This document shows positions 8,417 through 23,477 of a stretch of 36,661 nucleotides of DNA, in pieces; the stretch's first letter is position 1; every line of letters begins with the position of its first letter. Origin of the DNA: Pseudodesulfovibrio sp. Lineage in GTDB: Bacteria; Desulfobacterota; Desulfovibrionia; Desulfovibrionales; Desulfovibrionaceae. A program made the translations under genes and the position numbers. The notes beneath the pieces were generated by a model. It searched no databases, was not told the origin of the DNA, and worked only from the letters and a program-made list of their open reading frames with translations. Location: positions 1-36,661 of the forward strand of contig JAEINO010000039.1 of the NCBI GenBank assembly GCA_016342345.1, read 5' to 3'.

Positions 8417-8450
8417 AAAAAAAACTCGCCTCTCCTTTGAGAGACGGGCA
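8417..8450 (-). terminator. Terminator hairpin, left copy (distal terminator of the RRM gene)
   Basis: Read on the minus strand, a hairpin (CCCG..CTCTC / GAGAG..CGAG) is followed by a run of nine T (A run at 8417-8425). It is nearly identical to the hairpin at 8607-8632. Together they bracket a dispersed repeat. Confidence 0.7.
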
Positions 8451-8478
8451 CAGCAAAGCACTGACGAAATCGACCTTG

Positions 8479-8602
8479 CAGTCTGTTGAGAAAGGTTCGA
8501 GTGCAAGGAGCAAAAAAAGTTCAAGACCGACTCGTACACCTTGTACGCTAGGATTTGAACTTTTTGCAGCAACGCCGCAATCGGGCCTTTATCAACAGAC
8601 TG
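8479..8602. repeat. Dispersed palindromic repeat, type B, copy 1
   Basis: 124-bp imperfect palindrome with perfect 11-base terminal inverted repeats (CAGTCTGTTGA and TCAACAGACTG). The core pairs AAGTTCAA with TTGAACTT and ends in the tip GTAC-acctt-GTAC. The same core occurs at 9181-9332, 15116-15238 and 23299-23451. No coding sequence. It is flanked on both sides by copies of one terminator hairpin. Confidence 0.85.
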
Positions 8603-8606
8603 AAGT

Positions 8607-8632
8607 GCCCGCCTCTGTTTTGAGAGACGGGC
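8607..8632. terminator. Terminator-like hairpin, right copy
   Basis: Stem GCCCG-c-CTCT / AGAG-a-CGGGC with a short T-rich loop, just past the RRM stop and without a T run on either strand. It matches the left hairpin at 8426-8454 as a direct repeat of about 29 bases with 3-4 differences, including 18 identical bases ending in ACGGGCACAG. Confidence 0.6.
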
Positions 8633-8665
8633 ACAGAAAACCGAATTAAAGCTTGAATACGAAAA

Positions 8666-8929: not shown

Positions 8930-9528
8930 TGAAAAGCTCTCCTGAAAAATAAAATGATGATACCATGACGCCCACGCGCCAACCAAAAAAAGAGAGACAC
9001 TGTACAAGATGCGTACGCTGCCTCTCGAAAAACCTGTTCGATTCCAACCAGCCCCGGCCAACATTCAGACCGCGCCTCTAACGGGTGCCACTGGCATATT
9101 TGATTAAACACTTTGTCAATATAGAAAAAATGTCAAGTGGTTTTCAAAAAAAGGCAGGTCAACCCACAGCGAATACTTAGGGAAGTACTGATTAATTCAA
9201 TTTTCAGGAAGTGCTGTAGAATTATTCGCTGGCAAGGCGCAAGAAAACCTCAAGGCCGACGCGTACTTCTTGTACGCTAGGATTTGAGGTTTTTAAAGCA
9301 ACGAAGCCAGCGGACAATTATGCAGTGCTTCCTTAGTATGCTGCAGCAGGAAGACCGAGGTGATCTTTTTTCTGCCACTCCGCTTCCGGCTACAGCAGAC
9401 TCCAAGTATCCGCGCCAGGAACAGGATCTTCAATACTTATCCAAACACCTGAAACAAAACCAGGAGGCCTGTCGCCCTGATGGAAAAACCTTTTTCTCAA
9501 CCCTTCACTTCTGCAACAAAAGATCCAT
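8930..9528. other. Long intergenic region between RRM and PocR-domain genes
   Basis: About 600 bases with no recognisable gene. 8930-9176 is the leader and promoter side of the RRM gene. 9177-9336 is the MITE-like element with its direct repeats. In 9337-9528 I see no coding sequence and no convincing terminator for the PocR-domain gene. Confidence 0.5.
9181..9332. mobile_element. MITE-like element, type A, copy 1 (IS5-group-like ends)
   Basis: 152 bp, no coding capacity, an imperfect palindrome over its whole length. The ends are inverted (GGAAGTACTG and CAGTGCTTCC) and flanked by 4-bp direct repeats TTAG at 9177-9180 and 9333-9336. A YTAR-type duplication with GGAA ends is what IS5-group transposases make. 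Internal hairpin: AACCTCAA / TTGAGGTT with tip GCGTAC-ttctt-GTACGC. It is nearly identical in plan to the copy at 23299-23451. Confidence 0.82.
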
Positions 9529-13770: not shown

Positions 13771-13800
13771 ATGCCCTGCAATCGTCTGGTTGCGGGGCAT
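13771..13800 (+). terminator. Rho-independent terminator after the sppA-like gene
   Basis: Stem ATGCCCTGCAA / TTGCGGGGCAT around an 8-base loop, followed by TTTCGGTTT. Confidence 0.8.
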
Positions 13801-13851
13801 TTCGGTTTGCCTTACAGTGGCAATTCCAATTCGCAATACAAGGAGTTTTAC

Positions 13852-15042
13852 ATGCAATTGATTTCGTCACAAATGACCGGATATATGGAACAAGGTTCAT
13901 GGATTCGCAAGATGTTCGAGGAAGGAATCAAGCTCAAGAAAGAGTTTGGAGAAGACGCTGTCTGCGACTTCAGCCTGGGCAATCCCGACCTTCCACCGCC
14001 GGCCATCATCAAGGAAACCCTCGCCGAGCTGGCCGATCAGGCTGACCAGCCTTTCTTTCTGGGATACATGCCCAACTTCGGCTATCCGGCTGTACGCGAA
14101 AGATTGGCCGAGGAAGTCTCCAAAGAACAGGGCGTGGACGTGCCTGCTGACTGTCTGGTCATCACCTGTGGTGCAGCCGGTGCACTGAACTCCTTTTTCC
14201 GCGCCGTACTCGGACCGGGTGATGAAGTTCTGTCCCCGGCCCCGTTCTTCGTGGAATACGGCTTCTATGCCGAGAATCACGGTGCCAAGCTGGTGACCGT
14301 GCCGTCCAAGCCACTGACTTTCGAGCTGGACCTCGACGCCATTGACGCGGCCATCACGGATAACACCCGCGTGGTGCTCATCAATTCGCCCAACAACCCC
14401 ACCGGTGCTGTCTACACCCGCAAGGAACTCGAAGGACTGGCCGCCATCCTGACCAAGCACAACGAGGGGCGCGACAAGCCCATCTACATCCTGTCCGACG
14501 AGCCGTACCGCTTCCTGGCTTTTGACGGAGTCGAAGTACCGAGCCTGCTCGACATCTACACGTACTCGGTGGTCTGCTCCTCGTTCTCGAAAAACCTGAG
14601 CATGGCAGGCGGACGGGTGGGCTACGCGCTCATCAACCCGGCCATTGAAGGCAAAGAGACTCTCATGGGCGCGGTGATCATGTCCAATCGCATCCTCGGA
14701 TTCGTCAACGCCCCGGCCCTGGCCCAAAAGCTGCTGGCCAAGGCCCTTGGCAGTTCGGTGGACATCTCCATCTATGACGATCGCCGCAAAGCCATGGCCA
14801 GTGTTCTTGACAACGCGGGCTTCGAATACACCATGCCCAAAGGCGCGTTCTACTTCTTCCCCAAGGCTCCGGGCGGCGATGACGTCAAATTCTGCGCCAC
14901 CCTGCAAAAAGAAAAAATCCTGGCCGTACCCGGCTCCGGCTTCGGCTGCCCCGGCTACTTCCGCCTCGCGTTCTGCGTAGGGGAAAATGTCATCATGCGG
15001 GCCAAGGACGGCTTTGTCCGGGCCATGAAAAACGCCAGTTAA
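13852..15042 (+). CDS. Class I/II pyridoxal-phosphate aminotransferase
   Basis: 396 residues, fold-type I aminotransferase close to the aspartate aminotransferase group. CDFSLGNPDLPPP (38-50), VLINSPNNPTGAVYTRKEL, ILSDEPYRFL (Asp/Tyr of the PLP site) and PLP Lys247 in SSFSKNLSMAGGRVGY; the C-terminal Arg lies in GYFRLAFCV. The donor/acceptor pair cannot be told from sequence. ATG 13852 is chosen because AAGGAG lies 7 bases upstream. An earlier in-frame ATG at 13771 is inside the preceding terminator stem. Confidence 0.92.
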   Translation: MQLISSQMTGYMEQGSWIRKMFEEGIKLKKEFGEDAVCDFSLGNPDLPPPAIIKETLAELADQADQPFFLGYMPNFGYPAVRERLAEEVSKEQGVDVPADCLVITCGAAGALNSFFRAVLGPGDEVLSPAPFFVEYGFYAENHGAKLVTVPSKPLTFELDLDAIDAAITDNTRVVLINSPNNPTGAVYTRKELEGLAAILTKHNEGRDKPIYILSDEPYRFLAFDGVEVPSLLDIYTYSVVCSSFSKNLSMAGGRVGYALINPAIEGKETLMGAVIMSNRILGFVNAPALAQKLLAKALGSSVDISIYDDRRKAMASVLDNAGFEYTMPKGAFYFFPKAPGGDDVKFCATLQKEKILAVPGSGFGCPGYFRLAFCVGENVIMRAKDGFVRAMKNAS

Positions 15043-15063
15043 CCGCCCGTATCAACAGACATC

Positions 15064-15089
15064 AAAAAGGGCTGCCATTTGGCAGCCCT
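15064..15089 (-). terminator. Terminator hairpin, left copy (distal terminator of the RTX gene)
   Basis: Perfect inverted repeat AGGGCTGCCA / TGGCAGCCCT preceded by AAAAA on the plus strand, so the T run serves minus-strand transcripts. It is the same hairpin as at 15239-15260. A second dyad (TCAGATTGA / TCAATCTGA) lies between it and the repeat element. Confidence 0.8.
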
Positions 15090-15115
15090 CAGATTGATTA
15101 CAACCTTCAATCTGA

Positions 15116-15238
15116 CAGGCTATTGAGAAAGGTTCAAGTGCAAGACGCAAAAAAAATCCAAGGCCGACGCGTATTCCTATACGCGAGGATTTGGATTTTT
15201 TGCAGCAACGCAGCAGTTGGTCCTTTGTCAACAGCCTG
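15116..15238. repeat. Dispersed palindromic repeat, type B, copy 2
   Basis: 123 bp with inverted ends CAGGCTATTGA and GTCAACAGCCTG. Core stem AATCCAA / TTGGATT and tip GCGTAT-tcct-ATACGC. Compared with the other copies the paired bases change together. It lies between two copies of one terminator hairpin, after the convergent aminotransferase and RTX genes. Confidence 0.85.
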
Positions 15239-15264
15239 AGGGCTGCCATGTGGCAGCCCTTTTT
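15239..15264 (+). terminator. Terminator hairpin, right copy (serves the aminotransferase gene)
   Basis: AGGGCTGCCA-tg-TGGCAGCCCT followed by TTTT on the plus strand. It differs from the left copy at one base. It touches the right end of the repeat element. Confidence 0.85.
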
Positions 15265-15306
15265 GGTCGGGTCATCCAGATATGCCCATACCCTGAAAGC
15301 ACCATG

Positions 15307-16056
15307 TTACTCAAAATCGCTGAGTGCCAGCACCTGTTCAAAGGTCAGTGAGACTCCCGGCATCGTGATTGTGGTATCGCCAAAAGAAATAAGCGTGTTC
15401 CCACTCTCGTCCGTGGTGACTGAAAGACTCGCTGAATCCTGGGTCTGGAACAAAAGACGATCCTGTCCCGGATTAAAATCACGGATAACGTCATTTCCAT
15501 GATCGTCACCAAACACGAACACATCGGCCCCGCCTCCGCCAGACAGGAGGTCGTCACCTTCGCCACCTATAATGACATCATCACCCTTACCGCCCCTGAC
15601 CGTATCATTCCCCTCGCCACCATCCAGCAAATCATCACCACTCTGTCCTATGTAACCAATTACATCATCACCCCCGCCTCCAAGCACAGTATCGTCACCC
15701 TTGTCTCCGTAAAGCGTATCGTTCCCTTCGCCTCCGTCAACCAGGTCGTTGCCTTGCCCGCCTCCCACAAAATCGTTTCCACTTCCGCCAAAGAGGGTGT
15801 CGTCACCAGCCTGACCCTCCAAACTGTCGTTGCCACTTCCGCCCAGAATAAGATCATCAGAACCCTGAGAAGAAGAATAGGAATCGGAGCTATCCCCATA
15901 GATGGTATCACCACCGGAAGTGCCAAAGAGTGTATCCTTCCCATCCGAGCCATGCACGGTGCCAGTTCCGGCAGCAGCCAAATCTTGCAATTCCTGCTCG
16001 GACATCTGTTCATCCGGGCCTTTCGTCAATGCATCAGTCTTTTTGCTTAAAGTCAT
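15307..16056 (-). CDS. Small RTX (hemolysin-type calcium-binding repeat) protein
   Basis: 249 residues. From about residue 35 to 180 it is built of roughly 14 glycine/aspartate nonapeptide repeats (GGxGxDxUx type, e.g. GGSGNDSLE, GGEGNDTLY, GGKGDDVII). These fold as a calcium-binding beta-roll. GGADVFVFGDDHGNDVIRDF and a C-terminal beta-rich tail resemble the type I secretion end of RTX proteins. No enzymatic domain is present. The N-terminus (MTLSKK to MSEQELQDLAAAGTG) is charged and helical and resembles a double-glycine-type leader, which is odd for an RTX protein. GGGGG ribosome site before ATG 16056. No type I secretion genes are nearby. Confidence 0.92.
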   Translation of the reverse strand: MTLSKKTDALTKGPDEQMSEQELQDLAAAGTGTVHGSDGKDTLFGTSGGDTIYGDSSDSYSSSQGSDDLILGGSGNDSLEGQAGDDTLFGGSGNDFVGGGQGNDLVDGGEGNDTLYGDKGDDTVLGGGGDDVIGYIGQSGDDLLDGGEGNDTVRGGKGDDVIIGGEGDDLLSGGGGADVFVFGDDHGNDVIRDFNPGQDRLLFQTQDSASLSVTTDESGNTLISFGDTTITMPGVSLTFEQVLALSDFE

Positions 16057-21739: not shown

Positions 21740-21865
21740 CATGAATCTCCTTGAAGAGTATGAATGAATCAGGGCGCAAAGACAGACAGTCGCATGCAAA
21801 AAATACATGCTGTTGCACACGCTCACGAAGCACGAAAACGTGCAGTGACAAATGCAGACTGTCCT

Positions 21866-22006
21866 ATTCTCTTCCATCCGGACTATTACCGTCGGCCCCG
21901 GAATCACACCGGGTCTGCTGACCCTCTCCACATGGAGAAGCGCTCGCGGGCTTTCTGGAAAGACCAGATTTACCGCCGGTGGGGACTTCCACCCCGCCCT
22001 GAGAAC
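21866..22006 (-). ncRNA. FMN riboswitch (RFN element) controlling ribB
   Basis: Read on the minus strand it contains all RFN hallmark segments in order: AGGGCGGGGTGGAAGTCCCC, ACCGGCGGTAAAT, AGCCCGCGAGC, GGTCAGCAGACCCGGTG, ATTCCGGGGCCGACGGT and TAGTCCGGATGGAAGAGAA. It lies about 125 bases before the ribB start. FMN binding should turn off ribB; whether by termination or start-site blocking is not clear. Confidence 0.97.
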
Positions 22007-22017
22007 AAGTGAGCAAC

Positions 22018-22638: not shown

Positions 22639-23298
22639 ATGTCCAAAGAAATCACTATTGTACGAAAGGTTCTTGAAGCGAATGACCGACTCGCCGAAGA
22701 ATTGAAAAACAAATTCAGAGTCAAGAAAATCCTGTGCCTGAACCTGATGAGCTCTCCGGGCGCGGGCAAGACGACCCTGCTTGAACGTACCCTGACCGAC
22801 CTCAAGGACGAGTTCAAGATGGCCGTCATTGAAGGCGACCTCCAGACCGACAACGATGCTCAGCGCGTGGCGGCAACCGGTGCACAGGCTGTACAAATCA
22901 ACACCGAGGGCGGCTGTCATCTCGATTCCGGCATGGTTCTCGATGCCCTCAAATCCATTGATACTGAAGGCCTGGACATTCTGTTCGTCGAAAACGTCGG
23001 CAATCTGGTCTGCCCGGCAGAATTTGATGTCGGCGAAGACTACAAGGTCACGTTGCTGTCCGTTGCCGAAGGTGACGACAAACCTGAAAAATATCCCTTC
23101 ATGTTCCATATCTCCTCGGTCATGCTGCTCAACAAGACAGACCTGCTGCCTTACGTGGACTTTGACATGAAAAAAGCCACCGGCCATGCCAAGAAGCTTA
23201 ATGCGGACATTGAGATATTCCCCATCTCCGCCCGCACTGGCGAAAACATGGAAGATTGGTACAAATGGTTGCGCGAAAAACGCGCTGCCAAACTCTAG
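22639..23298 (+). CDS. hypB: Hydrogenase nickel incorporation GTPase HypB
   Basis: 219 residues, SIMIBI-class GTPase. P-loop SSPGAGKTT (38-46), EGDLQTDNDAQR, metal-site GGCHLDSGM (Cys93/His94), ENVGNLVCPAEFD and NKTD. It lacks the N-terminal CxxCGC nickel site and the His-rich stretch of some HypBs, so it is the short form without metal storage. Start ATG 22639 behind AAGGAG. The stop TAG at 23296-23298 lies within a CTAG that forms one flank of the mobile element inserted directly after the gene. Confidence 0.96.
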   Translation: MSKEITIVRKVLEANDRLAEELKNKFRVKKILCLNLMSSPGAGKTTLLERTLTDLKDEFKMAVIEGDLQTDNDAQRVAATGAQAVQINTEGGCHLDSGMVLDALKSIDTEGLDILFVENVGNLVCPAEFDVGEDYKVTLLSVAEGDDKPEKYPFMFHISSVMLLNKTDLLPYVDFDMKKATGHAKKLNADIEIFPISARTGENMEDWYKWLREKRAAKL

Positions 23299-23451
23299 GG
23301 AAACGCTGATTAATTCAATCTTCAGGAGGTGCTGTAGAATTGTTCGCTGGCAAGGCACGCAAAAAAGTCAAGGCTGACGAGTGCTTCCTGCACGCTAGGG
23401 TTTGATTTTTTTTGCAGCAACGAAGCCAGAGGGCAAGTATGCAGTGATTCC
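23299..23451. mobile_element. MITE-like element, type A, copy 2 (inserted at the hypB stop codon)
   Basis: 153 bp, inverted ends GGAAACGCTG and CAGTGATTCC, flanked by direct repeats CTAG at 23295-23298 and 23452-23455. It shares the GCTGATTAATTCAAT left end and the core (GCAAGGC, GGCTGACGAGTGC, tip GTGC-ttcct-GCAC, GCAGCAACGAAGCCAG) with the copy at 9181-9332. No coding capacity. Confidence 0.82.
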
Positions 23452-23477
23452 CTAGGCATCACACCTCAAGAATTCGC

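Follow-up and report, generated by a model that had tools for sequence, protein, structure and literature searches.

A 149-bp element in a duplicated bidirectional terminator hairpin of Pseudodesulfovibrio, very probably an IS1182-type MITE

We analysed a stretch of 36,661 nucleotides (the window), contig C143 of a Pseudodesulfovibrio sp. assembly of 4.15 Mb in 149 contigs. A 149-bp non-coding element in this window (15090-15238, + strand) is in all likelihood an IS1182-type MITE that inserted in a bidirectional Rho-independent terminator between convergent genes, with duplication of the terminator hairpin by structure-led insertion. On the + strand the terminator serves a class I/II aminotransferase gene (13771-15042), and the convergent ORF on the - strand (15307-16056) carries RTX calcium-binding nonapeptide repeats. 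The hairpin, AGGGCTGCC..GGCAGCCCT, was found twice, as AGGGCTGCCATTTGGCAGCCCT at 15068-15089 and as AGGGCTGCCATGTGGCAGCCCT at 15239-15260, with 21 of 22 bases equal. The run AAAAA (15064-15068) lies solely to the left of the first copy and TTTTT (15260-15264) solely to the right of the second. The two hairpin copies with their one difference and the placing of the two runs had been described in the initial annotation and were confirmed. The match between the two flanks of the element scored 19. When left and right flanks of different copies of the same family were paired as a control (n = 1722), the maximum score was 16 and the 99th percentile 5, so the duplication in the window is beyond chance. 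Exactly one element fills the gap between the hairpin copies, with no spare base on either side.

The element is short and non-coding, has terminal inverted repeats and holds no transposase, as is characteristic of a MITE. The initial annotation had delimited a 123-bp repeat; this repeat is real (15116-15238), but the mobile unit is 149 bp and a left extension of 26 bases, CAGATTGATTACAACCTTCAATCTGA at 15090-15115 (+ strand), had been missed. The assignment of these bases to the element rests on other copies, in which a homologous extension of the form CA(A/G)AGTGCTGACAAA.TCAATCTGG occupies the same place. The extension carries the true outer left end (CAGATTGATTACAA..), which agrees with that of an IS1182-family insertion sequence (IS) at locus L274 in 13 of the initial 14 bases. 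What had been taken for the left end is an inner direct repeat of the element end, CAGGCTATTGA, which lies about 25 bp in (15116-15131, + strand, CAGGCTATTGAGAAAG). The terminal repeats are formed by the outer left end and the right end (15223-15238, - strand, reverse complement CAGGCTGTTGACAAAG), with the consensus sequences CAGAGTGTTGACAAAGTC (32 copies) and CAGGCTGCTGACAAAGGC (42 copies). The centre is occupied by an imperfect hairpin with A- and T-runs (15150-15205), a core that is common to the type A elements described below. Overall, the element comes close to a complete palindrome. For the RNA of 15062-15266 (205 bases) one long hairpin was predicted on both strands, with -117.9 kcal/mol (z -14.7) on the + strand and -110.3 kcal/mol (z -11.6) on the - strand.

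The flanks of 42 full-length copies were compared. Copies were counted when a hit of the profile of the 149-bp element extended from model position 6 or lower to position 146 or higher and at least 40 bases of flank were present on both sides; shorter copies and copies at contig ends were excluded beforehand. The 42 are not a random sample, with 53 of the surveyed loci picked by end pattern and the 36 genus genomes sampled non-exhaustively, and they take in one tandem-array unit without the conserved extension (L016). Duplicated flanks were detected in 25 of the 42 copies (score of at least 8, in every case above the 99.9th percentile of the control). The duplication measured 18-34 bp in 23 of these 25 and was mostly a clear hairpin, each with its own sequence, as at L103 (29/29 bases), L106 (23/23) and L194 (18/18). 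Set against 200 shuffles, the right-hand copy gave the best fold in 16 of the 25. Nine did not; they include L002 and L032, where the arms of the right copy are mutated, as well as L228 and L231, whose duplications (12 and 14 bp) are not hairpins. The initial annotation had suggested a target duplication of about 22-29 bp; a large, hairpin-long duplication was indeed found, with a wider range (MITE 18-34 bp, related ISs 22-40 bp).

No duplication was found in 17 of the 42 full-length copies. Several carry a single flanking hairpin, on the left at L197, L183, L213, L178, L215 and L085 and on the right at L127, which could reflect decay or another insertion mode. At L168 and L225 the two hairpins stand in opposite orientation, the right being the reverse complement of the left; an inversion at the palindrome after the insertion may account for this. 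Left-end fragments, five in G105 and one in G025, were seen by eye to adjoin a hairpin too. Nine stretches came out of a scan of wider genome contigs for the left end; L127 (Pseudodesulfovibrio MC-06) alone is clearly the same element, and six look like chance. The end CAGGCTGTTGAAAAAG was also observed in distant phyla, at L122 (Sedimentibacter) and L121 (Thiohalobacter), possibly in far relatives of the core family.

A second full-length copy in the window, at 8454-8602 (+ strand), had been reported to show the same arrangement, which holds in a decayed form: its left hairpin copy (8420-8453) is decayed and is matched by the right one (8603-8636) in 28 of 34 bases. In the window's own genome 60 matches to the 123-bp core were reported. 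Many of them are something other than the mobile unit: copies without the left end, tandem-array units, or type A elements, which have only the core in common. Copies with both ends showed a hairpin duplication in five of ten cases. Matching flanks were found at 4 of the 17 copies without the left extension, and those four are tandem-array units and not hairpins. The initial annotation had regarded a lack of duplicated hairpins at most genomic copies as evidence against its reading. Taken literally, this is the case if all 60 core matches are counted (five clear duplications), as against half of the copies with both ends. By eye, among 79 pattern matches in this genome, no element end had a partner end 1-3 kb away.

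Tandem arrays were observed in the same genome at L031 (C10), L011 (C24), L016 (C48), L009 (C15) and L007 (C53). Their units are mostly about 152-156 bp long and consist of the core and a spacer of about 30 bp, and several arrays lie near contig ends. Additionally, a similar stretch of about 80 bp (..CCTTCGGGGC..TCCGCTGTCCTGCGGATTTG..) is nested in element copies of two species, L195 in G072 and L019/L100 in the own genome.

The type A elements of the window (9181-9332 and 23299-23452) have the ends GGAAG..CTTCC and have a core of 76-90 bp in common with the window's type B copies, as the two elements described above are termed, at 72-80% identity. Their flanks are 4-bp YTAR sequences and not hairpins. 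In 15 type A copies, collected by a pattern requiring YTAR on the left, YTAR was present on the right in all 15 and the same four bases stood on both sides in ten. Whereas the core is like that of type B, the ends and flanks differ, which points to another transposition system. Two transposition systems seem to have adopted a single palindromic core. As a target, YTAR resembles that of the IS5 group. The CTAG that adjoins the second type A element on its left (23295-23298) holds the stop codon of an ORF ending at 23298, and other element ends in the own genome were seen by eye to adjoin TAG triplets, possibly stop codons. The window also contains an FMN riboswitch (RF00050) at 21862-22010 on the - strand (119 bits).

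Some IS1182-family members are reported to have long direct repeats. IS1182 transposases were searched with NCBIfam NF033551 in the 36 genus genomes. G116 yielded an IS of about 1573 bp in three copies, encoding a 485-aa transposase that scored 457.7 bits (cut-off 270) and also matched PF05598 and PF13751 above cut-off. The ends of this IS are CAGACTGCTGACAAACCC and CAGATCGCTGACAAACCCC, and two of its three copies lie between perfect copies of a terminator palindrome, of 31 and 25 bp. With this transposase as query, matches at E 1e-40 were found in 6 of 288 family genomes, G116 included. The IS in G278 has 24 of 26 bp duplicated, and in G008 four of five IS copies have identical flanking duplications (40, 32, 29 and 22 bp). 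Altogether, whole palindromes of 22-40 bp flank seven of nine IS copies of related genomes, and in six of these seven both sides are identical. The two that do not fit are L256, with an unequal hairpin on each side, and L280, which has lost its left end. Another IS matching NF033551, with at least 30 copies listed in G128, was rejected as unrelated; at nine loci (L252-L272) its ends are GAGACCTCTGCACGG and its duplications are mostly of about 5 bp.

The ends of the IS at L274 (CAGATTGATGACAAAGTCC), of the MITE at L127 (CAGATTGATGACAAACCCC) and of the window element (CAGATTGATTACAACC) were compared. The IS end CAGATTGATGACAAA (L274, L278) equals the left end of the L127 MITE over 15 bases, and the window element agrees in 13 of 14, a match that is short and not significant alone (E 0.5 for the window element). 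Based on the ends and the footprint together, the partner family of the MITE is most likely IS1182; the initial annotation had left the family unassigned. No significant likeness to the three ISs compared was found in the MITE beyond the ends. The MITE thus has ends and habit in common with these ISs and is not plainly a shortened IS. ISs with similar ends, of the autonomous kind for which a search had been proposed, were found in G116, G278 and G008, but the MITE-bearing genomes yielded no intact transposase of the IS1182 family. G000 and G072 are absent among the six genomes matched by the G116 transposase, the NF033551 search returned only fragments in G000, G072 and G163 and nothing in G164, and PF13751 had no match in the own genome. 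The seven MITE copies in G072 are 92-99% alike and this genome has IS1182 fragments only; the enzyme would therefore be lost, diverged, or another one. Hairpin-targeted insertion by a different DDE transposase, with a similar CAG..TGACAAA end, is in our view unlikely. The missing intact gene and the lack of interior similarity between MITE and IS speak for it, whereas IS1182 ISs of the same genus and family have similar ends and leave the same unusual footprint.

Relatives of the window's genome were examined for the site as it was before insertion. Orthologues of the aminotransferase gene are present in all 36 genus genomes, and 30 loci were read, 29 besides the window's own. The element was absent behind the gene in all 29 (200 bases read, plus profile search). 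A single, recognisably same A-run/hairpin/T-run terminator was kept in seven of them (L134, L137, L138, L139, L140, L144 and L145), for example AAAAAGGGCTGCCATCGGGCAGCCCTTTTTTT at L144. A comparable pair was found for the G072 copy at L193, which has a 31-bp duplication (28/31 equal): behind the same gene at L328 stands a single hairpin with a nearly identical stem. Here 30 loci of 33 genomes were read, 29 besides G072. As these relatives have a single hairpin and no element, the site most likely had just one hairpin prior to the insertion. Profile checking of the orthologue loci returned the three filled sites, a type A neighbour in L290 and two weak partial core matches, one upstream of the aminotransferase gene in L157 (26.5 bits) and one behind the L193 orthologue in L338 (20.5 bits). 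The 29 orthologues of the gene beside the second window copy (30 loci of 34 genomes) have kept no recognisable terminator, and the flank of the IS copy L251, used as an empty-site query, had no match outside G116 itself.

The same loci bear on the order of events. A terminator doubled by ordinary tandem duplication, with the element arriving later between the copies, is very improbable, even though tandem arrays of related units exist in the own genome. The hairpin is not doubled in the 29 orthologous loci, and about 20 independent events would be needed, each ending exactly at an element. Doubling of terminators in places without the element had been named as a point that could overturn the insertion reading, and this was not borne out: among 206 hairpins in 58 element-free loci only two similar pairs were found, both in L158 and by eye of a different repeat kind. 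The original proposal, in which an A-run/hairpin/T-run terminator received the element and its hairpin was duplicated, is supported by the empty sites, by many independent copies and by ISs of a known family with the same habit.

We give hardly any credence to a REP/REPIN-like origin with movement by a RAYT (Y1) transposase. The nearly complete palindrome and the Y1_Tnp matches in the own genome (three of four above cut-off) speak for it. Against it, the duplications here are 18-34 bp long and the ends resemble those of an IS1182 IS, whereas REP/REPIN elements are not known to make target duplications and carry a GTAG-type tetranucleotide. The IS1202 family, which makes long duplications (16-28 bp), was ruled out because its ends are 5'-TGT..ACA-3' (PMC10132070) as against CAG..CTG here.

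Hairpin targets without preference for base sequence have been described for IS1272/TnSha1, members of the IS1182 family in Staphylococcus (PMC4923244, PMC5678879). In the 2016 report the hairpin was deleted without duplication, and several targets were mapped as real terminators (PMC4923244). The window element and its kin resemble IS1272/TnSha1 in transposase family and in the targeting of hairpins. That system deletes part of the hairpin or replaces it and makes no target duplication, whereas here the whole hairpin is kept and duplicated; replacement of the IS1272 type is at odds with the window site, which has both copies, and with the relatives, which have a single one. For IS1272, Wan et al. 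2017 proposed a pathway a, in which the 3' feet are attacked and the hairpin is lost, and their discussion and the legend of Fig. 13 outline a hypothetical pathway b with hairpin duplication, for which those sections give no examples (PMC5678879). The window element and its kin most likely follow this branch. Siguier et al. 2015 is cited in both papers for palindromic targets of some IS1182 members (PMC4923244, PMC5678879), according to Wan et al. with no detailed data on this point (PMC5678879). MITEs of ISMac2 (IS1182) in Methanosarcina acetivorans are 160-169 bp long and have a proposed IS1182 partner; their inverted repeats are given as 25-26 bp and their direct repeats as 4 or 0 bp in the table columns of that source (PMC3852290). 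The element described here is likewise non-autonomous with a proposed IS1182 partner, and differs from them in its hairpin-long duplications. IS1182 is also among the families listed as over-represented between convergent genes in one survey (PMC9208149). In the open-access literature, with few subscription journals covered, we found no description of this MITE, nor of an IS1182 element that duplicates hairpins.

The lengths of the duplications indicate how the insertion may proceed. With DDE transposases the stagger of the cut is normally of almost constant width, which gives a duplication of fixed length. The duplication here tracks the palindrome over 18-40 bp, and a fixed stagger would not give such lengths. 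The transposase would recognise the extruded hairpin, as a cruciform or single-stranded, and not the base sequence. The two 3' ends of the element would be joined to the 5' feet of the hairpins on both strands, and gap repair would copy everything between the feet, resulting in a duplication as long as the palindrome. We infer from this footprint that the enzyme recognises a cruciform. A duplication length that follows the palindrome fits structure-dependent strand transfer.

A scan with a consensus terminator detected the left hairpin copy on the - strand only and the right copy on the + strand only, as well as a third, weaker site at 15318-15332 on the - strand; shuffled sequences averaged 0.9 sites. 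Each convergent transcript would run through the element and then stop at the far hairpin copy. Judged from the sequence, the insertion would be nearly harmless to termination, because the left copy keeps the T-run of the leftward gene and the right copy that of the rightward gene. On balance we favour the view that a DDE transposase gauges its target by shape and not by length, cutting at the two feet of the extruded terminator hairpin so that the duplication equals the palindrome (18-40 bp), and that the duplication acts as damage control: each convergent gene would be left with one working terminator, and bidirectional terminators would be safe harbours for the spread of a non-coding passenger. 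The copies, the empty sites and the ISs together offer natural test cases for the reading of cruciforms by transposases in living cells, and they suggest how an insertion may leave termination intact in both directions.
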